Source: Antedon bifida (lineage: Eukaryota > Echinodermata > Crinoidea > Comatulida > Antedonidae). From it: a stretch of 64,000 nt of DNA. This document shows, piece by piece, positions 2,457 to 63,398 of this stretch. The position numbers were made by a program, and so were the translations under genes. Positions within the stretch are counted from its first letter, which is position 1, and each line of letters begins with the position of its first letter. The notes beneath the pieces were generated by a model. The model was given only the letters and a program-made list of their open reading frames with translations, was not told the origin of the DNA and searched no databases. The stretch spans positions 25,977,409 through 26,041,408 of the forward strand of contig OY727093.1 in assembly GCA_963402885.1 (NCBI GenBank), in the 5' to 3' direction.

Positions 2457-11383
<8,927 letters not shown>

Positions 11384-16705: not shown

Positions 16706-19700
16706 TCAGTAGACAATATTCCATTTTGAAGGCTGGTCACAATCCGGGTCTAAATCTGGGTCACCGCAAAAACAGTTGTACGTCGTCTTTGGGTCAAATC
16801 CGATGATTTGTCTCTCTTCTTGTATACGAAACGAAAACGTGGAAACGCATGTTCCAATGAAATACCTACACGAAAAACATCAACATTGAATAACAAAATG
16901 AGAACAATTAAGATTGAAATAATTAAAAGAGATTTGGGGTGTGAGGAAGCTGATGAGAGAGCAGGTTCTGGTCCAGCGCCAGCAAATTAAAACGAACGTC
17001 AATGTTTTGTTTTCAAGCAGCTATGCGCATCGATTGCCGCATAGCCACGTCGTGAAAAGGAAACATTGCCTTTCGATTTGATTTTCCAGCGCCGGACCAG
17101 AACCGTGCCGGAACAGGTGTAAAAGACTCTTAAGACATGGTACTGAAAGCTGCAGTGTTTCACAATAAATACAATTATTATTATTTATTCTTTATACTGG
17201 GTAGCCTCTTCAGTCTAAGACTGTTCTCCCAGAGGGCCCAGTGTATGTATATATGATGAGTTTGTGATAAATACACCAGGGTAACCCCCTACTCATCTCG
17301 GAAGATGTACTAGGTTCTTTAAAGTGCACATGAGCTAGATGAGTGCACATGAGCTAGATGTGTACACTCGACCTACGGTTTATATTACATTACATAGAAC
17401 CATGGAGCGACTAAGCCTTGAACCCTTGTCGATGTTAACATGTGTTTGAGACACAGACATACTGATGTTATTGTTATGGTGAAACAAATGTTGTTGGGAA
17501 AGACAGACAATAATATAGTAAGGTGTATCGGTTTCTAGCACCTACTGGCAAACTTTAATGGCTGCTGTCTGTAAAGTTAAATGATACAACATGTTTTGAT
17601 AAAATGAGAATGTACTCTTACTTAGCATGAGCTGCTACCCATTGATCTATGATAGCTACACCTCCATCCTTAAACCTCTCCATGATGTCTTTAGGTGGTC
17701 GGTAGTGAACAACTTTGCCATCAACTTGACTCTTTAGGTCATCAATTTCTAACATAAATTATAATTATAAAATCAATATTTTGGTAAAGAATACACGGCA
17801 GCACTAACAATACTAATTTCATTATGTAGAAGAAATTAAAATGATTTTAATACCTGATTTAATAGCATCTGTGCATAGAAACACTGATTTTAATCCCTCT
17901 CTTTGAAGAATTTCATTAATTTGCGTTGCGGCATTTTTAATTGATGGAGCTTCCTTTCGTTTATTGCGAGCAAAGTCCTGCCTACGTAGATGTACTGCTA
18001 GATAATCTCCTCCTTTGGCAGAACCAATTACTGGCTGAAAGTATAGTGCATAATTGCTATGTAATTTTGATGTTTGTATCGGTTACGGTTACACGCAATC
18101 TGGCCATGAGTTACATGAGTTAATTTGTTACAATGCATGTCTTGTTTTTTTTAATGAAATAAAGTGAATTTTTTGCCCATCTACGTATTACAACATCAGT
18201 AGATTTCCAATTTTTAGGGCGAATCTACAGCAGAATAAATACTATTTCTACCTCCTCCAAGAAGGTTATGTTTTCACCCCTGTATGTTTGTGTGTGTGTT
18301 TGCGTGTGTGTTTGTGTGTCTGTGAACAGCCTGGAGGCCACAGTTTTTATCCGATTCTCACCAAATTTGGCAACAATGATCTATACCCCAAAAGCTCGGA
18401 CGAGTTCGAATTTGAGGGGAAAAGGTCATAGGTCAAGGTCACAACTAACAAAAATCTATTTTACTGCCTAGAGACCACAGTTTTTATCCGATTCTTACCA
18501 AACTTAGCCACAATGATCAATGACACATCATATAATTGTGGTTAAATTTTGAAGGGTCAGGGTCAAAGATTAAGGTCCACAAAAAAACTAAAAAAAAAAG
18601 AAATAAAATAATAATAAAAAAAAAACCTCAGTGGGACTTGAACCAGCGATCTCAACTGTGAGAGGCTGGATACATAACCATTACACCACACTGTCATCCA
18701 CAACTTTGTAGTGTGCAGTTAACATATTTACACTTAGAACTAATAAAAAAAAATGTAAAAAAAAAATATTCAGGGGGCATTTTATGTAGGGGAATTTTAC
18801 AGTAGGCGGAGGTTTGTACTCTCAGAGTACCCTCTAGTTTTACTTATTTATTCATAACACATTTATTTCCAACTGATAAAAAGAAAATATATGACACATT
18901 TTTTTATATGAACAATTTGTTCAGAATTATAACTAGAAATGCAATAGCACTTGTCATGAGATGGCCCTTATAATAAACAATATAATTATTTATTTTCCAT
19001 TTCATATTAAAAATATAAATTTTGAAGCAGAATTTAACTTCAACCCTACCCATGATAATTTCTATATCAAGACCAGAATAATATACCTTTTGATCTTGCC
19101 AATTTCTTTCCATAATCGTGTTATCCTTTTCATCAGTTGAATGAAAATACTTTTTTCTGATTGCGTCTCCAATACCAATAAGAGAATCAGAGAACCTCAT
19201 ACTTCTTCTTGCCTTTAAAATAAAAATTTATTTTAAATAACTAGAAACTCCCTTGTCAAAATACACATCAACTATTAGCAAGTACAGTAAACGCTCAGGA
19301 CGTACTATTTTTTATGATTAAATACATTTATCATATTATCTATCTAATATCTCCCTTGATATTTAAATAACAAATTAAATTATCATATCAAAAAGAAAAG
19401 GTCACATTAGTACAATAACTACTGTAATAAATTAAAAGTAAATTGTATTTTTTGTTGATCCAATAACAAGTAAACAAAACACAGGATAAATAGTGCTTAT
19501 GACAATAACACATTTCAATTGTTAAGTGGCCTAAGCAAACACTATGTGACATACAGTACATTTGTCAGTGCAGCATAAATGTTCATACATTAATACTAAC
19601 TTCACAAGAATTACAATCTTACATAATCTTGATTTTTAGTGATCTAGTTATGTAAACAACAATAATAAAGTAACATCTTGCATTACAACTGTCCTCTCAG

Positions 19701-22700
19701 TTAAATGGGAGAAACATCAATGTCCTTAGAGTTGGAGAGACATGTATTTTTGACATTAGAAAGACACGCCCTTTAGTTGGATAGACACACCCTTTGTGTT
19801 AAGTGTTAAGAGAGACGTCTTTTGTATTGGAAAGACACACCCTTTGAATTGGAGAGACACACCCTTTGTGTTAGAGAGATGTGCCATTTGTATTAGAAAT
19901 ACACGCTCTTTGAGTTGGATAGACACACCCTTTGTGTTAGAGAGACATGCCTTTTGCATTAGAAATACACGCTCTTTGAGTTGGATAGACACACCCTTTG
20001 TGTTAGAGAGACATGCCTTTTGCATTAGAAATACACGCTCTTTGAGTTGGATAGACACACCCTTTGTGTTAGAGAGACATGCCTTTTGCATTAAAAATAC
20101 ACACCCTTTGAGTAGGAAAGAGATGCTTTTTGCATTATTTCATTTCTATTATTAATATTACTGAAATAAAATAATGTATACCTACTTCACCAGTATTAAT
20201 TGATAAGCATTAGTTGCACAAAGTGTTTGTAAAATAGAGCATTTATAATTGGAAGATGTTACTGTGTGCTAATAACATGCATATTAAAATATATACAATT
20301 GAGGGAAATGGTGAATCGAGATGACGTCACTAAAAATTTGCGAGTTGGGTAAAAATTGGAAACAAAACATATACCTATATACCAAATTCAATAGTTGGAC
20401 ATCTGTTTGTCATTTCCCTCTATTGCTACCATCCCAAAAGCAATTTATTAAATGTTATAGGTGCATTGCCTAATTTTTTTTGCTGACATAAATTTGCATT
20501 TTAAATTTGTAACAAATTAGAACATAGAAGTTAGAACATAAACAATCTGTGGAGGACAAACTCCTTAAATGAGTAATAAAAGAACAAATAAATGACAGCA
20601 GAAATAAAACCAACGTAAAGTGCTAGTTTCCTACTCACATCCCAATAATCTTTTCCTCCATAATGGTCGTGAAGCAACTCCTCGGCTCGGTCAACAAACA
20701 CTGACCTGTGTCCGATGGTAAATAGGTTAATGATTAATAAGGTTAGTAGTCACACATATACCTGATAAAGAATGCCATTGTTCAACACATTTTTTTAGCT
20801 CAAATATTTTATCCTGTGCTTGTAGACAAACATTTTATCACGTGCTTGTGCAAAATGCTATTTTTAAGCAAACAAAGCTAGCAAAAGATTTTTTAAACCC
20901 ATCACCAAAGCAGAGATAGAATGTGCAGTAGTATGTTACAATATATTAAGGATTTTTTTTATATATATTCTACCTCTATAGTAATATGTTGCAAAACATA
21001 TTGCTTTACTACATACAGTAAAGCTCTGTCTACACTATCAAACTTTATGTGACAAAAAAAAAATGCGATGGTGTCATCACTATGATATTTGGCCGGATTT
21101 CATTTGGGCACATCACACTTTTGTTGTTAAACTAGTTTGATAGTGTAGATAGAGCTTAAGAAACAAACTCTGATGAAAAAAATGAAATTCATCATATATT
21201 TTGTATTAAATTTTTGCATTTAATTTCAGAGAATGTTTTGAAGGATTTGTGCAAAGTGAGCAAGTGATCCATTTACAAGATGAATTTCCATGTAGTTTAG
21301 AATTTTCTCTGTGAAGAAAAATGTGTGAATAAGAGTGAAATACAGTGACAAAAACAGAGATTTAAAGTTGAACATTGACATTTTTCACAGATACCCAGGT
21401 CAAAGGGCAACTTACTTGCCAATACATCTTTCCCCCGAATCTGTCATGCAGAACTGTTTCTGCTCTGGTTATTAATACTGATCTGGTAATAGAAAATTTA
21501 AGAAAATACAACTAGTCTACGGATGAATATATTAGTATTTAAAAATTTGAAAACATTCATAATTTTAGATTCTAATCTACCAATAAAATATGTCCAGTGC
21601 CTAGACTGATTAGATTACTATATTATAGAATCGGTCACAAAAGCACTATACTAAATGATTGATATCAAATGATATGATAATTATACCGTTTGTATGTATT
21701 AAATTTGTATATTGACTTTGTTTTGACTGTGAATACTATAATGATATTCTAATATGGCTTGGTATTGATGAGGTATTTGTTAGCAAAGTGTTTTTGTTTC
21801 ATAGTGTTTACTTTCTTTCTACATAAAAAAAGACAGAAATAGAGAATGGCGTATAGCATTAATAATGATGGAATTTATGAGTATATTGATAGTATTATTA
21901 TCATGATTAAAATGAATTTTCTAAATCTGTTTTAAAAGTATTGAAACAGACATAAACGCAAATAAATTACATTCAGTATAAATTTCGACTTTTAAAAAAA
22001 ATTTCACAAGTATATTATATGCATCCAACAGCGAACAACTCGCCAATTACAGGATGGATAATATATTTATAATTGATCGTTTCATGCTTGGGGTGTGGAG
22101 TTGAAAGAGTTGTTACAATCCAAGGTCAGGATTGGGATTTGAAGACAGGCACATTAACCACTAAGCTACACCTCCACTGTATATAACTATGATATTGTTA
22201 TTACCTCCGCCAAGGAGGTTATATTTTCATCCCTGTATGTTTGTGTGTCTGTCTGTCTGTGAACAGCCTGGAGGCCACAGTTTTTATCCGATTCTCACCA
22301 AATTTGGCCACAATGATCTATGCCCCAAAAGCTCGGACGAGTTCGACTTTGAGGGGAAAAGGTCATAGGTCAAGGTCACAACTAATAAAAAACTATTTTA
22401 CTGCCTATAGAGACCACAGTTTTTATCCGATTCTCACCAAACTTAGCCACAATGATCAATGACTTATCATATAATTGTGGTTAAATTTTGAAGGGTCAGG
22501 GTCAAAGATCAAGGTCCACAAAAAAAAAAAAAATAAAAAAATAATAATAAAAAAAAAAAACTCAGTGGGACTTAAACCAGCGATCTCAACTGTGAGAGGC
22601 TGGATACATAACCATTACACCACACTGTCATCCACAACTTTGTAGTGTGCATTTAGCCTATTTACACTTAGAACTTATAAAAAAAAATATATAGATTTTC

Positions 22701-25613
22701 CGGGGACATTTTATGTAGGGGAATTTTACCGTAGGCGGAGGTTTGTACTCTTGGAGTACCCTCTAGTTATAACTATTTTAATTCCAATAAAAATGGAAGT
22801 TTTGGAAATATGTATCATAAAATTGTATGCATACTTTCAAAATTAAAAATTGTTCGTAATAAGAATTTATTGAAAACAATATCTAACACTGTATGTATAC
22901 TTTGCACACATTTACAGTTTAAATATCAAACAGTTTCAGAAACTGACATATCACCTACTTCCTTTAATAAGCCTATAGTTTACTACCCTACATTCATCAA
23001 ACTTTTATATTAACCCCTATTACAGGGTACTTAGAACCAATAAAGATAACCCACAAAGTAAACATACCTTGCAGTTGTATTTTCCCACAGCATAGGAGCT
23101 AGAATGCTTGCAAAGCCCTGTACAGACAGACATGTAAAGTTCAAGCCATACACGTCGTTGTAACCCCAGAACCAGCCTCTAAATTTTCCATCTTTTTTTA
23201 TATAAGGAGGTCGATCAATGCACTCTCGTCTGTCATACTTTTCTTCAAATTTACCATTCTTCCATCCTTCAGCATAACGTTGGAGTGTGTATATTTCTTC
23301 AATTTCTGGTTCTCCTGTATTATTATTATAAATACAAAAATTAATTGTGATTACACAATGAATAATAACTAACTAAATTGTTTTGTTACTCTTCTTTTGG
23401 GAAACCCTATTTATTTACCTCCCCCAAGGAGGTATATATGTAATCGGTAGCGTGTGTTTGTTTGTTTGTTAGCAGGATTACTCAAAAAGTAATTACAAGA
23501 TCTTTACTAAAATGAATATACAGATAGATATGTGGACCATTCAATTAAATTTTGGGACCATTTGGGACCATGGTCCCAATTCTGGACCACTTTTTAGTAT
23601 ACTTTTCAGACCTTTTTCAAAAGCCGGCAAGCAGTCTTAAAGTCCCAAGTAAACTGAAATTGCATTTTCTCAAGAACTACTTGTCCAAAAAACTTCATTT
23701 TTGTACAAGAGGCAAGAGTTATAATTTGTGATTTGTAATTTTAAAACATAATTTGATTTAATGTGGACGTTTTTTGATGCGAGTAGTTTAAAAAACCTAT
23801 TTCTTTTCAAATTCACTCGTTTGATTTTCGCGTTGCTGTTCTATTGTTAGTCAACTGAAGCTATTGTTAATTGAAAGGCTTGTTACATAACCATTACACC
23901 AAACTCGCATACACATGCTTGTTGTAGTGAAATTAGCCTAAATCACAAACAGCACATTAAGACACACACAAATATATATATTTTTTTTTTATCGGAGAAA
24001 TCTTATGTAGGAGAATTTTACAATAGACGGAGGTATGCACACTCGGAGTGGCTTCCTAGTTGATACTGTAGATGTGGAAGATAGATTTTATTATTAACGA
24101 TGGTGTGATGATTGTTCTGATAGCCAGAAAAAACCAATAGTCATCAAGTAAACAACAAGACCGAGGTTCTAGATATTGTGAAGTTACCTTAAGTTTTATT
24201 ATTTAAAATTACTGATTTTTTAGGCAGGAGACAATTAATTATAAACATTTTTTTATCTACACTTATTCATAAGCTAATTTAATAATAATAAATACATTAC
24301 TGTTGGCATGCCATAGGTATTCTTCAAATTCCATAACAGGAACATGTTGGTTCAAGCTTTCAACATTAAAGAATAAAGACCACGGTATTCGATTTTGGTC
24401 AAGCCTTGGCGTCTTCCAATGATACATCCTGCCCCAAGGCGGAAGTACCAAAATCCATTCTTCTTTTTCACAGAGAGTTTTAACAAGATTTGCTATTCGC
24501 ATGTAAACATCTCGTCTTAAATTAAATCCTTCTCCAGGATTGACATCATACAGTAGATACCTATAAATTAAGAATTATAACAGATATTTCTCTGGAAATG
24601 TCCATTCAAATTTAATGTAATAGGTTATACTGCCCAGACAGCCTAATGCACAATTGTCGTGCTACAGAAGATGGAGAGATTGCTAAAACATTGGTGTTAG
24701 TTCTGTTTTGCACCTATTTCAACTCCAAATTTAGAAGTTAAAATTTACTGTAACTTTATTGTGAATACTTTAGAATATCTAGAATTAGGCCTTATAACTA
24801 CTTTTATGAAGGAAAATCACATAAAAAGTAACAAATAAATCCTTAAATTGATAATTATTTTCATGCTACTACTTCTATTTATTCTAGACTGTAATACAGA
24901 TAGATAGAAGATAAGTCTAGAATAGAAGTAGTAGGCCTAGCACGAAAATAAAAAACAATTACAAAAAAGATACAATTTCAATATTTGTCAATGATAGATT
25001 AATATAAAGAAGTCAATATAATATATAAATATAGTATATTATATTGACTTTTTTATATTAATTTATCGTTATTATATTGAAATTGTATCTTTTTTAATTA
25101 TAGTATAATTAAAAAAGGACTAGGCTAGTAATTAATAATATACCATTATGTTTTATTATTTATAATTATATTATTTTATAATTATTATTAACGTTTTTTT
25201 TTTTCAAAATACACAATAACAGCATAGGTTGCTAGATCTAGTAGGCCCAGCCCTAGAAACCTAGGGGCGTAGATTATTGCACCGACCGCCGGTCAAACTG
25301 TCACTGACGAGTTGACGTTATCCCATTTTGACACGTCGTCACATAGAGAGGCGGGCTAGAGAGAGACCTCTCGTTCCGCCGTACGCGTAGGCCTATTGTT
25401 GCCCTTTCTTTGCTTGGTGGTGATGGCCTAGGCTCATTCATACCTTACTGGCTTAGCGACTCCTACGTTTAAACCTTTTTGTGACGAACTAGCTTGAAAT
25501 ATGTCATCATCAAGTAAAATTGTTTCTGCGTAACATGCAATTATGTTTAATAAAACAGATAATAATACGACAGACTTAAACAACTTGAGCAGACGTCGTA
25601 TGTACGCAGCCAT
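16706..25613 (-). CDS. POFUT2: GDP-fucose protein O-fucosyltransferase 2
   Basis: Coding exons in transcript order: 25613-25444, 24560-24301, 23314-23068, then one of 21482-21416 or 20705-20639, then 19212-19087, 18034-17854, 17748-17622, 16865-16706. Phases are consistent and the product is 445 residues, against 429 in human. The enzyme adds O-fucose to Ser/Thr in thrombospondin type-1 repeats in the ER. Residues 1-29 look like a signal peptide (hydrophobic [15 protein letters not shown]). The donor/acceptor site motif [14 protein letters not shown] holds the likely catalytic Glu67; [12 protein letters not shown] follows. The fucosyltransferase motif HLRRQDF is at 305-311. The C-terminal STFSFR and DPKTTYN motifs are present; the human TSVSTF reads TCVSTF here. 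The start was chosen at the ATG in AAAGATGGCT; an upstream in-frame ATG would put 16 residues ahead of the signal peptide. Confidence 0.95.
16971..17108. repeat. Fold-back MITE in the last POFUT2 intron
   Basis: The left end GGTTCTGGTCCAGCGCCAGC and right end GCGCCGGACCAGAACC are inverted and continue, more weakly, for about 65 bp per arm, meeting around GCGCATCGATTGC. It has no coding capacity. Confidence 0.75.
17165..17465. repeat. Dispersed repeat with internal 19-bp duplication
   Basis: The sequence contains ACTGGGTAGCCTCTTCAGTC, CCCAGAGGGCCCAG, CCCCCTACTCATCTCGG and GTACACTCGACCTACGG, a style of moderately GC-rich dispersed repeat I recall from several marine invertebrate genomes. AGTGCACATGAGCTAGATG occurs twice in tandem near 17320-17360. 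The minus strand reads GGGTTCAAGGC near 17420, a weak B-box resemblance. Classification is uncertain. Confidence 0.45.
18249..18838. repeat. Repeat family C (ACCTCC...GGCGGAGG), copy 1
   Basis: This repeat of about 590 bp begins TACCTCCTCCAAGAAGG and ends AGAGTACCCTCTAGTTTT. It contains a GT-rich stretch, two tandem CCACAGTTTTTATCCGATTC modules, and a tRNA-like segment on the minus strand. It is in a POFUT2 intron and closely similar to 22201-22767. Confidence 0.8.
18625..18690 (-). repeat. tRNA-like module inside repeat family C
   Basis: Read on the minus strand it gives TGGTGTAATGGTTATG, an A-box-like stretch, and about 40 bases later GGTTCAAGTCCCACTG, which fits the B-box. These are the two internal RNA polymerase III promoter blocks of a tRNA. 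The same module sits at 22563-22624 with one B-box change. It is embedded in a repeat, so it is a tRNA-derived part of a mobile element rather than a tRNA gene. Confidence 0.55.
19735..20130. repeat. 22-bp minisatellite with 66-bp higher-order unit
   Basis: The units are 22 bp: AGACACACCCTTTGTGTTAG(AG), AGACATGCCTTTTGCATTAG(AA), ATACACGCTCTTTGAGTTGG(AT). In the right half, triplets of these repeat with an exact 66-bp period (GAGTTGGAT at 19912, 19978 and 20044). The left half is less regular. Because 66 is divisible by three, one frame stays open on each strand, giving spurious ORFs of about 110-120 codons. The array lies in a POFUT2 intron. Confidence 0.9.
20639..20705 (-). CDS. POFUT2: POFUT2 alternative exon 4b
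   Basis: The exon is 67 bp with an acceptor ending CACAG and a GTGAGT donor. After completing the Arg codon left by exon 3 it encodes 22 residues including [19 protein letters not shown]. This is the copy closer to the human segment ([17 protein letters not shown]). Its length and phase are identical to the exon at 21416-21482, and it lies downstream of that one in the transcript. Joined after that exon it would be read one frame off and hit TGA at its fifth codon. Confidence 0.9.
21021..21157. repeat. MITE family A, copy 3
   Basis: It begins AAGCTCTGTCTACACTATC and ends GATAGTGTAGATAGAGCTT, a 137-bp element with inverted termini. It lies in the 710-bp intron separating the two alternative POFUT2 exons. 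Confidence 0.85.
21416..21482 (-). CDS. POFUT2: POFUT2 alternative exon 4a
   Basis: The exon is 67 bp with acceptor TTACCAG and a consensus GTAAGT donor. It encodes 22 residues including [19 protein letters not shown]. It aligns end to end with exon 4b: R-AE--LHD--GGK-YW is shared, and about half of the positions differ. No stop or splice-site damage is visible, so it looks functional rather than a decayed duplicate. Confidence 0.88.
22021..22180 (-). mobile_element. tRNA-derived SINE, minus-strand copy
   Basis: The minus strand reads GTGTAGCTTAGTGGTTAATG (A-box-like), a diverged B-box region, CTTTCAACTCCACACCCC, and CCATCCTGTAATTGGCGAG. All these match in order the plus-strand element at 61931-62155. 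It is in a POFUT2 intron. Confidence 0.7.
22201..22767. repeat. Repeat family C, copy 2
   Basis: It begins TTACCTCCGCCAAGGAGG and ends GGAGTACCCTCTAGTTAT. It runs in parallel with copy 1 for almost its whole length, including the tRNA-like module at 22563-22624. The high similarity suggests recent insertion or duplication within the same gene. Confidence 0.8.
23416..24060. repeat. Repeat family C, copy 3 (diverged)
   Basis: It shares the ends (TTACCTCCCCCAAGGAGG and AGACGGAGGTATGCACACTCGGAGTG) with copies 1 and 2. Its middle differs, keeping only part of the tRNA-like module (ACATAACCATTACACCA near 23885). Confidence 0.6.
24964..25097. repeat. Snap-back inverted repeat in POFUT2 intron 1
   Basis: AAAGATACAATTTCAATAT at the left is matched by ATATTGAAATTGTATCTTTT at the right, and inner AT-rich segments pair too (GTCAATATAATAT / ATATTATATTGAC). 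The result is a nearly continuous hairpin about 60 bp per arm. A second, smaller inverted pair lies just before it (TACTTCTATTTATTCTAGAC / GTCTAGAATAGAAGTA, 24870-24935). Confidence 0.75.
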
Positions 25614-43900: not shown

Positions 43901-46900
43901 GACTACTTTCAGTTTCTTAAGGACTTTTTTTCCTATATTTGTATAATTCTTTTGTTTTTATTACAGATTACTTTAAAATTCAAACGGTATACAATACTGT
44001 ACTGTACAATTCATTATCCTATTTCCATAGTTCATTTCATTCGTTAAAGACCCATTCCCTACAATTTGTGACGTTTTGTAAAGATAATGCATGTATAACT
44101 GTAAAAACATTAAACCATGTCTTTCCTTGTGTTAAATGTACGTTTTATGGTAAATTATAATAAAAAGAGAAAAACAATGCACTACCTAAGTAGCTCGCGG
44201 TGAATGTTCTCTCTTTGGCCGTCTTTAGGCCTAACCTAACTAGGCTTAGTTTTGCAGGCCTAGCTGGTAAACATGGGTAACGTACGAACATCGTATTGGG
44301 AGAGTTGACTGGTATTGGGAGAGTTGACTGGTATTGGGAGAGTTGACTGGTATTGGGAGAGTTGACTGGTATTGGGAGAGTTGACTGTATTACATTGAAC
44401 TTTATTAATTCTATATTCCACTTAATTATTACCAATATTTTGCCAACATTAATTTATTCACCAACATAGTTGGTTTATTACAAACAAAATGAATAAAAAC
44501 AATTCATACATAAATTTGCATGTACAGTAGATAGACTTCCTTCCTTTTCTTTTTATTTTCTTTAGATTACATTATTTATGCATGTATTGCGTTTAATAAT
44601 GTTTTATTGTAAAAATAATCAAAAGAAGTTTTTTCGTATACTACTATTATTACTTGGGTAATCAATTTTCATTAGTGGTAATATCAATATATTAACTGGT
44701 AGTAGTACTGTACATTACATAAGTCAAATGTTTTAAATTCTAGTCTTCTATATTTTATCTCTATCTCAACATAAAATATTTTTATATAAAAAGGGAAAAC
44801 TAATTGAAAAAAACATAGGACTATTAATAATACTATCTAATTAACAATGATATAGAGTACGGTCAGGGTTGGATTTATATAACAGATTTTGGTAGGCTAT
44901 GTCAGTATTGTGTGGATACATTCATTTATACTTATATCTTCTTCTTTCAGGAACTTCTGTGAAATGTCCAACTATCAAATTCTAAGTGCTGCAGACTTTG
45001 GAAAACATGTTAAACAGGTTTTTCCCAACATCAAGGTACGACGTCTTGGAACCAGAGGAAATTCAAAATATCCTTTATTTTTATTCAATAATTATTTATG
45101 TAATTCCCAGTGGAAGATCTGTTGTTTAGTTAGATACTATCTAATTTTAAGTACTTAATCATTTACTTAAAGCAAGACAATCTAACAACAGGATGCTGAG
45201 CTCCAGAGATCAAAAGGTTTATCTGTGGCGGCTACACGATCAGATCCACACCCCTAACAGTTGCTATTTGTCGCAGCCAGACATAACATCAAAGGACTGT
45301 TACGAGTTCTTATCTTGGCAAGGCGAGCTCAGTCTCCTGTTGTTAGATTGCCTTGATCAAATAGTAATATTTATTATAAGCAGTTATTCTAATATAATCT
45401 TATTTAATCTTATTATTATTAATCTTTAACTAATCTCTACGTATTGCTACAGTGGCATCAATAAAAAAACAGAGGTCCGTCCACCATCTTTGCCAAACCT
45501 TGATTTAATACGTACAAAGAAGTCGGTAAGGAATCTTAAAAAATGTTGTTTTTTTAAAAATTTGTTTCTATATGTAGTATTTGTATTGTTCTTGTTTGTT
45601 TGTAATTCTAGTAATCTATATAACAACACGCACAACACACACTTATTAGCCAAAAAGGCATTCTATTCAAACTAAACATCAAGAAATAACTATAATTTGG
45701 TATGAATGTTTAATAAGGGATAATTAAATATATTGTACTTTGTTTTCATTAGGGACATGGTTCTATTCTTGGTGCTGATCAACAAATAAATGATTCTGCC
45801 AACATTGTAGTTTGTGAATGGGCATCTAAACGAATTGGATGTGCAATTACTTCAGTCGTCGATTTAGCCAAACATCTTGTCAGTACCAATAACGTACAGG
45901 GAAAATCTGCAGCAGCTTTTAATCTTCTTGTTGAGCATCCATCAAAACAGCTGCTTCACCGAGTTAGAACTGGTGCTTTGACTCACAAGGAAACTAACTT
46001 ACATCTTCAGAGGACAATACAACGTCGTCAAATGCACAAACAGAAACAACAATCTGAGGCCAACAAGCAGTCAAGTTGTACTTCAACAACAGTACCAAAG
46101 CACGTAGATTCCTCCAAAACTGTTGAATCGGTGGAAATGGTATACAGTGATTATCAATTGAAAATAGATAGCGACAGCGGACATTCAAGAGGATCGGATT
46201 CAAGCTTCAGCGGCAGTGATGTTGCTACTGATCATGATAACTCATTGTCATCTCCAAAGAAGTTCTGTAGTAGTACAGCTAATAACCAGAATAATATCAG
46301 CATGGATAATAAAGGAATCAATCATAAAGAAAGTCCAAACACAAGAAAACTTAAACCACTGATGCCAAAGACACCAATCTCTGAGTCTCAACAGAGAGGA
46401 GGACAGGTGATCTGTTTAATGAGCAGCCCGATGGCTGGATCTCAGATGACAGGAACTCAACCCAGACAGTGTACAACACCTGTAACACCTGTGACACCTG
46501 TACTTCAAGTGAATGATCAAACATACTTGTTAATTACACCAAGCACAAGTGCAGCGATCTTGCAAGATCCTAAAAGTAGTGGGACACCAGCCATTGATTC
46601 TGTCAAAAAGGCACCAACCATCGTTGCTACAAACAGTATTTCTATAAATAGTCCACAGCGTGTGGTGACAACAAAAACAAATAGTCAGACTGGTATTGTA
46701 GGAGCTTCATGTTCTACTTTGCCAAACGCTTCCACCATAAGTATTGGTGAAAGGAGCCTAAGAGTTTTGTCACTTCCTGTGCAGTCAAGTAAGCCACAAA
46801 TTAATAGTAATATGCACAATGTTATGCTAAATAACTCCACTTCAAAGTTGACATCTAACATATCAACACCTGAGTCTACACCGATGACATCTACACCAAT

Positions 46901-48623
46901 GATGTCCCGCGTTCCAAAGAAAATGACCTCTGGTCCTATACCAGTATCTATTTCAGTAGCTGGTGGTTCTGTGAATGAGAGTCAGGTCAAAGTTCAGAAT
47001 AGGTCTATTTCAGTCAATGAGCTGCATATATCAAGCGACAACAAGTCACTTAAACCAGAATCACAAGCATTAAATGTAAGTGATAATTCAAGCTCAGCTA
47101 GTTTACTCAAGCTTATTGGACTACAAAAAGAAGACCAGTCAACTAGACTATGTGTGAAGACCAGTAATAAACCTGATTCCAGTACTGGCTCAATTCTCCA
47201 GGATATGTTAGTGTTGCGGAGTGATGGCAATATCCATGACTGGCAAAATACATGCTCTTCACCATCTATTCAAGTTTTAAACTCAACCATTCCACGGGCC
47301 TCTTCAGCCAATGCAAACTCATTGACTTTGATTAATACATCTCAGGTTCCTACTAACAACATCAGCACCATCTACAACATTCACAATAACACACTGCCAG
47401 TTATTGCACAGTCTGGTAGTACTAGTGTACCATCAAGTCCTGGTTACATATCCCAACCACACACACCAACTCATGGGCAACACTATGTTATTCAGACTTT
47501 ATCATCACCTGGACCTTCGGAATCTGGCAATGTCTTCAGCTTTACTCCAATTGCAAACACAACAGGGTTTCAAAATGGCTTACCTATGAGTCCCAAGCCA
47601 ATGCCTAAACCTAAGCCAACAATGGGTGTAAAACTTGATCTTTCTGAAAAAAATTCTCAACTGGTGATGTGTCAAGACTCACCCAGACAGGTACCTAAAA
47701 CAGCTAGGCAAGAATTGAATGCCTTGAGAGGTGGACAGAGTAACATCCGTCCTGTTAGAAATCGTAGGGTATCCGCATCCTCAAGGAAAAAGATGAACCA
47801 ACCTTATGTGTCAAAGACAACAATTGGTGCTGGGGTGCTAACTTCACCTGGAAACAGTAGAAGTGCCACTCCAGTGTCATGTATGCTTACAAATGCCAGT
47901 AATATACAACTGTATCAGTCAGAATCTGAGAGTATGCCTCCCCCTTCACCAAATCCATTAAAAGTTGAAGTGTCACCGTGTGTTGCTCATGCATCTAGTT
48001 TGTTAAACAACAGAAGTATTGATCAAGCTGCTTGGAGAAGACAACGTAGGCTTTCAGGACCCCCAACCCAATTCTCGTTAACAAATGTCGGTCCACAGTT
48101 GCTAAATGCTGATGCAACAATATCTCAATTGACCATTAGACAAAGTCAGAGAAGTCAGTCGGTACCGCTGCCAGAATTAGGATTTGATGCTCTACTGCCA
48201 AAATATCAAGCTATGTGGAGTGCCAAAGAAAGTTTGACTCCATTGCCATCACACTTGCAAGAAATAAGCATAAGTGAGGAGGATTTTCTGGGTACTGATG
48301 AGCAAGCTGGAGACCTAAGCACAACTACCTCAGTAAGTGCTGATGATAATAGTATGATGGAGCCATCATGGGATCTTGATAGGGAAGACACTGTTTTGAC
48401 AAATAGCAATGCTGCCAACACTATGTTTACCAGTACTCTAAACTGTGGCAGCAATGTCACAGATGATGTCATGAGTAATAGCTTGACACAAGATAATATT
48501 CTACAACAAATAAGCACAACTTCTAGTTTCTCTGGCAGTGAAAACTCTATAGATATGGATACGGATTCTTTTGACGCTTCTTGGTCTTTAGGTCATTTAT
48601 CTTCTCTTCCTTGTGGATCATAA
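28986..48623 (+). CDS. RFX7: RFX5/RFX7-class winged-helix transcription factor
   Basis: Coding exons: 28986-29206, 33073-33106, 39030-39127, 39771-39890, 44951-45067, 45441-45525, 45753-48623; total 1181 residues with consistent phases. An in-frame TAG at 28965 precedes the ATG. Residues about 74-118 ([12 protein letters not shown], then [16 protein letters not shown]) match the N-terminal dimerisation segment of RFX5/RFX7. The RFX DNA-binding domain spans about 129-205: [63 protein letters not shown] and the following helical region also fit RFX5/7. The last exon encodes 955 residues of Ser/Thr/Asn-rich, presumably disordered sequence, with an RRQRRLSG and RSQSVPL pair like the tail of vertebrate RFX7. 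These factors bind X-box DNA. Length favours RFX7 over RFX5. Intron 5 is AT-AC. Very long introns 1, 2 and 4 are full of repeats. Confidence 0.93.
29661..29825. repeat. MITE family B, copy 3 (truncated, internally deleted)
   Basis: It keeps the CCATTTTAATGTCACATAAT and ATAGTTATCCACTTTGA segments and the right end GGGGGACAATACATCC, but lacks the left terminus and about 110 bp of the middle. Confidence 0.75.
31552..31723. repeat. MITE family D, copy 1
   Basis: It begins CAAGGCAATCTAACAACAGG and ends TTAGATTGCCTTG. The interior shares GAGATCAAAG, ACGATCAG and ATCAAAGGACTGTT with 45173-45355. The element is about 172 bp. Confidence 0.85.
34105..34200 (+). mobile_element. SINE remnant
   Basis: AATCCTGACATAGTGGCAGG, GTTGTAACTTAAGCCTCAAATG and TTTATCCATCATAAAATTG follow the order of the SINE at 61931-62155 with gaps. 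Confidence 0.5.
34797..35249. mobile_element. Nonautonomous DNA element, CAGACCTCCCAACT ends, copy 1
   Basis: The termini are CAGACCTCCCAACT and AGTTGGGAGGTCTG, and TACATA flanks both sides as a probable target duplication. The interior is rich in CTCCCGATTTT-type words and lacks coding capacity. Confidence 0.7.
36307..36646. mobile_element. Nonautonomous DNA element, CAGACCTCCCAACT ends, copy 2
   Basis: The right end AGTTGGGAGGTCTG is exact and the left end is CAGACCTCACAAC. Several ATATCGGGAAG/ATATCGGAAGAT words near both ends are inverted copies of the CTCCCGAT-type words in copy 1. About 1.1 kb from copy 1. Confidence 0.55.
39207..39343. repeat. MITE with GCTTGGTTCCCACTAG ends
   Basis: It begins GCTTGGTTCCCACTAGGATG and ends CTAGTGGGAACCAAGC, a perfect 16-bp terminal inverted repeat, 137 bp overall. 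It is in intron 3 of the RFX7-like gene. A diverged copy is at 60711-60826. Confidence 0.85.
40678..41160 (+). repeat. ATC/GTC trinucleotide-based microsatellite
   Basis: About 480 bp is built almost entirely of TCA, TCG and TTG triplets in recurring words such as ATCATCATCATTGTCGTC, with some ATATCA interruptions that shift the frame. It yields open frames of poly-Ser, poly-His and poly-Ile character which are not genes. Confidence 0.95.
42482..42531 (+). repeat. Cytosine-rich tract
   Basis: Runs of 5, 11 and 11 cytosines separated by single thymines, with shorter runs around them. The minus strand carries the matching guanine runs and could form a G-quadruplex. It makes a poly-Pro ORF that is not a gene. 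Confidence 0.9.
44294..44387 (+). repeat. 19-bp tandem repeat, five copies
   Basis: The unit TATTGGGAGAGTTGACTGG is repeated five times without a mismatch, the last copy lacking its final two bases. Confidence 0.97.
45068..45440 (+). other. RFX7: AT-AC, U12-type intron in the RFX DNA-binding domain
   Basis: The 5' splice site is ATATCCTTT (45068-45076), the consensus of AT-AC introns removed by the minor spliceosome. The 3' end reads TCTTTAAC (45423-45430, a branch-site match) and then CTAC at 45440, with the candidate branch adenosine about 12 bases from the boundary. No GT donor is usable near the conserved junction. Joining 45067 to 45441 gives the invariant RFX sequence [12 protein letters not shown] in frame. 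The alternative reading through the site runs into non-RFX sequence. The intron contains a family-D MITE. Confidence 0.88.
45173..45355. repeat. MITE family D, copy 2
   Basis: It begins CAAGACAATCTAACAACAGG and ends CCTGTTGTTAGATTGCCTTG, giving inverted ends of about 20 bp with one mismatch. It occupies half of the AT-AC intron. Confidence 0.9.

Positions 48624-55751: not shown

Positions 55752-63398
<7,647 letters not shown>

Follow-up and report, generated by a model that had tools for sequence, protein, structure and literature searches.

A candidate pair of mutually exclusive exons in the POFUT2 gene of the crinoid Antedon bifida

The POFUT2 locus

The window analysed in this work is a stretch of 64,000 nucleotides of the Antedon bifida genome (GenBank assembly GCA_963402885.1, contig OY727093.1, positions 25,977,409 to 26,041,408 of the forward strand), and all positions given below are those of the window. 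It contains a complete POFUT2 gene on the minus strand, with all of its coding exons located within 25613-16707. The coding part of exon 1 (25444-25613) runs from the ATG, has a start that looks like a signal peptide by eye, and its open frame joins to exon 2 (24301-24560), which contains the stretch with the catalytic glutamate (human Glu54). Exon 3 (23068-23314) ends in phase 2 and is followed by two 67-nt exons, defined by sequence, frame and splice sites: a variant copy, exon 4a (21416-21482), and a copy of the ancestral type, exon 4b (20639-20705), separated by an intron of 710 nt (20706-21415). Exon 5 (19087-19212) starts in phase 0, exon 6 (17854-18034) carries the HLRR stretch with the equivalents of human His292 and Arg294, exon 7 spans 17622-17748, and the coding part of exon 8 (16707-16865) ends with a terminal tyrosine followed by the stop codon. 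The coordinates, the 67-bp lengths and the common phase that the initial annotation had given for the two exon 4 copies on the minus strand were all confirmed, exon 3 ending at 23068 and exon 5 starting at 19212.

The identity of the encoded protein was established by comparison with solved POFUT2 chains. The isoforms containing exon 4b or exon 4a matched human POFUT2 (4ap5) with 510 bits (E 4.6e-152) and 497.4 bits (E 3.2e-148), respectively, in both cases over query residues 47-445, and the worm protein (5foe) with 393.9 and 386.6 bits, whereas POFUT1 chains did not exceed 23.5 bits. The Pfam O-FucT domain was recognised with 158.5 and 158.1 bits in the two isoforms (cut-off 31.5). PMC6096484 assigns catalytic or GDP-binding roles to the human residues Glu54, Asn57, His292, Arg294, Asp371, Ser387, Thr388 and Phe389; in the alignment, with positions counted by hand, all eight are the same in the Antedon protein, and all are encoded by the common exons, none by exon 4. 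Of the two fucose contacts named in the same source, Gly55 is kept and Pro53 is replaced with glycine, as it is in the worm chain. This indicates that the gene on the minus strand is POFUT2, by its sequence a TSR O-fucosyltransferase. Homology with the human (PDB 4ap5, 4ap6) and C. elegans (5foe) proteins covers nearly the whole length; however, the solved proteins contain a single exon 4 segment, which is nearer to 4b. Two transcript variants are tabulated for human POFUT2 in PMC3935309.

Other features were visible in the window. Two similar interspersed repeats lie within POFUT2 introns on the minus strand, at about 22220-22770 and 18250-18840. By eye, both begin with AGAGGGTACTC and include a tRNA-like stretch; no tRNA was called in the window by ARAGORN. 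A MITE-like short inverted-repeat element is located at 21021-21157, inside the intron between 4a and 4b. It is one of four copies of an element with terminal inverted repeats (AAGCTCTGTCTACACTATCAAACT), the others being found at 4670-4811, 4945-5023 and 56518-56659, and the AAGCTCTGTCTACACTATCAAACT arms gave 8 matches with up to 3 mismatches versus 0 expected. On the plus strand, an exon for an RFX DNA-binding domain (44883-45155, 59 bits) is followed by an open frame of 956 amino acids (45753-48620) that has no Pfam match; this is probably an RFX5/RFX7-like gene. Also on the plus strand, a 5S rRNA-like sequence (57553-57670) scored 44.2 bits (cut-off 38) and looks altered by eye; it may be a pseudogene of 5S rRNA or an element derived from it. 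Finally, two carboxyl transferase exons on the minus strand (59109-59396 and 62042-62371; 37.8 and 33.7 bits) resemble the methylcrotonoyl-CoA carboxylase beta subunit.

Homology and reading frame of the two exon 4 copies

Exons 4a and 4b align in register, residue for residue as had been proposed. They share 13 of 22 residues and 38 of 67 nucleotides, and align with a BLOSUM62 score of 77 (the self-score of 4b is 127). Exon 4b shares 18 of its 22 residues with the human segment and 14 with the worm segment, versus 13 and 10 for exon 4a, and the BLOSUM62 scores against the human segment are 109 and 80, respectively. The initial description of the human segment as nearer to 4b was therefore correct, and since 4b is nearer to both the human and the worm sequences, it is, on these protein comparisons, the ancestral-type exon. 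By eye, 4a equals neither 4b nor human at the four positions where 4b departs from human. This fits an old duplication, although four positions are too few to decide the branching order.

One important question is whether exon 4a could be a chance open frame, an assembly error or a mis-joined paralogue. Among the 402 placements of an AG and a GT 67 nt apart in the window (164 and 238 on the two strands), the best after 4a and 4b scored 7, and when all 66-nt windows were read in six frames, the best after 4a and 4b scored 22 against the human segment. The gap between this value and the 80 obtained for 4a excludes a chance open frame and also argues against an artefact. A duplicated contig piece or an allele would be expected to extend into the flanks, but the 150-nt flanks of the two exons show no similarity (p 0.997 upstream and 0.26 downstream). 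A search of the window by tblastn with both isoforms (E up to 1) gave no second copies of other POFUT2 exons, the cross-match between 4a and 4b being the only second-copy match, which speaks against both an artefact and a paralogue; no third copy of exon 4 was seen in the window. Nothing was found in favour of this explanation, and we give it a minimal probability. No related loci were found in viral contig or genome contig collections, which include no eukaryotic set, as expected for an animal gene. At the DNA level the similarity between the two exons is modest (local score 20, attained by 0.7% of 300 shuffles), so the case for the pair is built on protein, phase and length.

Both exons are entered in phase 2, left in phase 0 and bounded by GT-AG introns with U2-type splice sites, an AG acceptor on each and the donors CAA|GTAAGT (4a) and GAT|GTGAGT (4b). 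Splice sites were ranked within the gene span, which contains 444 AG and 542 GT, using a consensus matrix. The acceptors of 4b and 4a ranked 17 and 29 of 444, and the donors of 4a and 4b ranked 3 and 11 of 542; these sites outscore five of the six other acceptors and five of the six other donors of the gene, in agreement with the good acceptors and donors previously noted.

Joining exon 3 to exon 5 through either 4a or 4b gives an open frame of 445 amino acids up to the stop after exon 8, so that each isoform taken alone encodes a full-length enzyme, as the initial annotation had stated. The two unproductive combinations that it had described were also reproduced. When both exons are included, the frame reads GTC AGT GTT TGT TGA and terminates at codon 253, 13-15 nt into 4b; when both are skipped, a TGA appears as the sixth codon (counting the split codon), which is codon 231. 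From the coordinates, the stop is located 52 nt (joint inclusion) or 110 nt (joint skipping) before the next exon junction, and 486 or 418 nt before the last one. Under the usual distance rule, stops placed so far before the last junction lead to nonsense-mediated decay. Since these distances comply with that rule, transcripts with both copies or with neither would be expected to decay.

The characters of mutually exclusive exons, namely adjacency, equal length, common phase, compatible splice sites, homology, and unproductive joint inclusion or skipping, are all present in the 4a/4b pair. The tandem-duplicated exclusive pairs described in PMC3228551 and PMC5740500 resemble it in adjacency, equal length, phase, splice type, homology and unproductive joint inclusion. 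The pairs in PMC5740500 are backed by junction reads, whereas the Antedon POFUT2 pair is predicted from one genome. The pair also has the properties used for the prediction of exclusive exons in PMC3228551, where only 90 of 16,180 other exons, in 6 of 1,705 genes on the fly X chromosome, shared them. On the other hand, according to PMC5740500, only 1,399 of 6,541 human candidates were verified when one junction read was required and 855 when three were required, and PMC3923563 states that evaluating the specificity of such predictions needs a perfectly annotated genome. In the worm data of PMC13247117, mutually exclusive events were 100% triplet as judged by the difference in exon length; this difference is 0 for 4a and 4b, which would place the pair on the triplet side. 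Another related class is that of alternatively spliced homologous exons (Abascal et al. 2015, PMC4465641), in which, as in this gene, a homologous segment is swapped, the duplication is old and the change is small; that set relies on human peptide evidence and the Antedon pair on sequence.

In the passages of the literature that were examined, homologous exclusive exons were not reported for POFUT2, and POFUT2 is not mentioned in the main text of PMC5740500. The passages on POFUT2 splicing deal with intron retention (a figure), with an alternative 3' site and, in two cases, with mammalian splicing events among which POFUT2 is listed with no type of event given there.

Age of the duplication and selection on exon 4a

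Silent divergence between the two copies is extensive. Eight of the 13 residues common to 4a and 4b use different codons; one of the remaining five, a tryptophan, leaves no choice of codon. Synonymous differences amounted to 12.2 over 13.7 sites (ps 0.89), a value beyond correction and obtained from few sites, and Ka was 0.39. Identity was 31/44 at the first and second codon positions together, versus 7/22 at the third (one-sided Fisher p 0.003). The duplication therefore looks old, with silent sites that appear saturated. If 12 of 14 silent sites are taken as changed, the divergence summed over the two branches has a 95% lower bound of 1.08 substitutions per site, an estimate from about 14 sites; assuming the same rate on both, this is about 0.5 per branch.

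The survival of an unused copy was estimated by simulating neutral change in a 4b-like sequence, with 20,000 runs at each step. The runs that retained an open frame, the AG and GT dinucleotides and at least 13 of 22 residues represented 0.5% at 0.4 substitutions per site and 0.055% at 0.5, and there were none at 0.75. Human, worm and 4b have 12 residues in common in this segment, of which 4a keeps nine, the lost ones being replaced from D to T, from H to R and from Y to F. Near-saturated silent sites together with kept residues, frame and splice sites argue that 4a has been under selection during most of its life, and this apparent selection lifts the pair above the average exclusive-exon candidate.

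Selection over most of the history of 4a does not by itself reach the present, and the exon might have been retired, that is, used for a long time and recently turned into a pseudo-exon that has not yet decayed. In favour of this, three of the 12 otherwise identical residues are gone, and an open frame and splice dinucleotides, taken alone, still persisted under simulated neutral change in 9.3% of runs at 0.3 substitutions per site and in 5.4% at 0.4. Nevertheless, not only the frame and the splice dinucleotides but also the flanking consensus are intact in 4a, with the donor at rank 3/542 and the acceptor at rank 29/444, and four of its replacements are conservative changes between hydrophobic or aromatic residues (F to L, V to I, L to V, Y to F). 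We therefore think it unlikely that 4a is a retired exon. The reading that we favour, with good though not full confidence, is that exons 4a and 4b of POFUT2 form a mutually exclusive pair that arose by tandem duplication and is used as alternatives.

Proposed enforcement of exclusivity and possible consequences of the swap

The initial annotation had proposed that the reading frame forces exclusivity. This holds for the protein, but need not hold for splicing, since nothing was found that would physically prevent the joining of 4a to 4b. An intron of 710 nt is too long for a steric block to splicing between its flanking exons, and no U12 donor or branch motif was detected by pattern search in the region 23314-19087. 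These results speak against steric and U12-based exclusion. In the absence of a steric block and of a U12 mismatch, we propose the frame together with nonsense-mediated decay as the enforcer: we infer that exclusivity is kept at least by these two elements, and it may rest on decay of the wrong products.

The possible contribution of RNA structure was analysed by a tile-by-tile duplex scan of the region from exon 3 to exon 5 in this one species, using 45 shuffles as control (an earlier run had used 3). The best, fifth and twentieth duplexes overall had energies of -35.9, -32.0 and -27.9, which were equalled in 11, 5 and 10 of the 45 shuffles, respectively. These values fall within the range of the shuffled controls and provide no general pairing signal. 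The tile of the 4a donor (-35.9) was equalled in 1 of 45 shuffles, whereas the figures for the other tiles were 4 (4b acceptor), 4 (4b donor) and 24 (4a acceptor). The 4a donor tile is predicted to pair best with a tile running from 19782 down, which overlaps the edge of a minisatellite. The minisatellite (19749-20121) lies within the intron that separates 4b from exon 5 and consists of 22-nt units with a 66-nt higher order. Because the 4a donor is one of seven measures, pairing at this site is a weak lead to a possible role. Dscam, Mhc and 14-3-3-zeta, in which competing RNA structures operate (PMC3923563), also have a cluster of exons in alternative use; in contrast with their docking and selector arrangements, the POFUT2 pair shows only weakly increased pairing, at the 4a donor.

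Two short motifs were considered and discarded. TGCATG, which we take to be an Rbfox-type motif, is present at 21450 (inside 4a) and at 20281; these two sites compare with about 0.7 expected by hand from composition and were set aside as regulatory evidence. The branch-like CTAAC situated 38 nt upstream of 4b recurs six more times in the region.

Frame incompatibility is frequent in known cases. Among genes with validated human mutually exclusive exons in a fly-human orthologue set, 20 of 28 (71%) had frame-incompatible exons leading to decay (PMC5740500), and frame incompatibility coupled to decay is thus a common arrangement among exclusive exons. Reads joining the two exons were reported in 18 of those 20 clusters (PMC5740500). 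Such joining is also what would be seen if 4a were a poison exon, serving for level control through decay of the joint product, with the 4a version of the protein being incidental. The stop produced by joint inclusion, 13-15 nt into 4b, is followed by further exon junctions, and no physical obstacle to 4a-4b splicing was found (the intron is 710 nt long and no U12 motif was seen), which fits this explanation. A poison exon, however, needs no conserved protein, and 4a keeps nine of the 12 invariant residues while its silent sites have mostly changed. For this reason we consider control of POFUT2 levels through 4a quite improbable as the main role of the exon.

Returning to the favoured reading, in which 4a and 4b are true alternatives, an old tandem duplication of a single ancestral exon 4 would have given rise to both exons, and the choice between them would be regulated by tissue, stage or cell type. 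In combinations with both or neither, an early stop precedes further exon junctions, and such transcripts would be removed by nonsense-mediated decay. Two enzyme versions, distinct in a single short segment, are thus probably available to the cell. The 4b isoform would be the ordinary TSR O-fucosyltransferase; the 4a isoform would have the same catalytic and GDP-binding residues and a small segment in which most acidic residues are lost.

By alignment (chain position + 21, anchored on Glu54), exon 4 covers human residues about 213-235. This segment includes none of the residues that PMC6096484 names as catalytic, as GDP-binding or as contacts of fucose, and it does not overlap the loop 141-155, which according to the same source selects acceptor TSRs. 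The suggestion that the swap tunes the preference for acceptor repeats finds no support in this location, although a change of acceptor preference through 4a is possible. What does differ is the charge: basic and acidic residues number 2 and 6 in 4b, 2 and 5 in the human and worm segments, and 3 and 2 in 4a, so that the net charge of the segment goes from -4 (4b) to +1 (4a). The 4a swap would most likely alter the stability or the surface interactions of the segment, rather than catalysis itself.

The sources consulted treat POFUT2 as a single enzyme with a single activity, on which the secretion of several TSR proteins depends. A more far-reaching view, possible though doubtful in our opinion, is that the exon 4 pair is an ancient regulated switch, perhaps predating the lineage and lost in vertebrates, which provides enzymes with segments of opposite charge and by which splicing tunes O-fucosylation or the quality control of TSR folding. 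If a second version of this core segment has indeed been selected, at least one animal group would be able to adjust the POFUT2 step through splicing. Exon 4a would then offer a naturally occurring variant for the study of a conserved part of POFUT2 for which we found no named role, and switching between homologous exons would extend to a protein-glycosylation enzyme of the endoplasmic reticulum.
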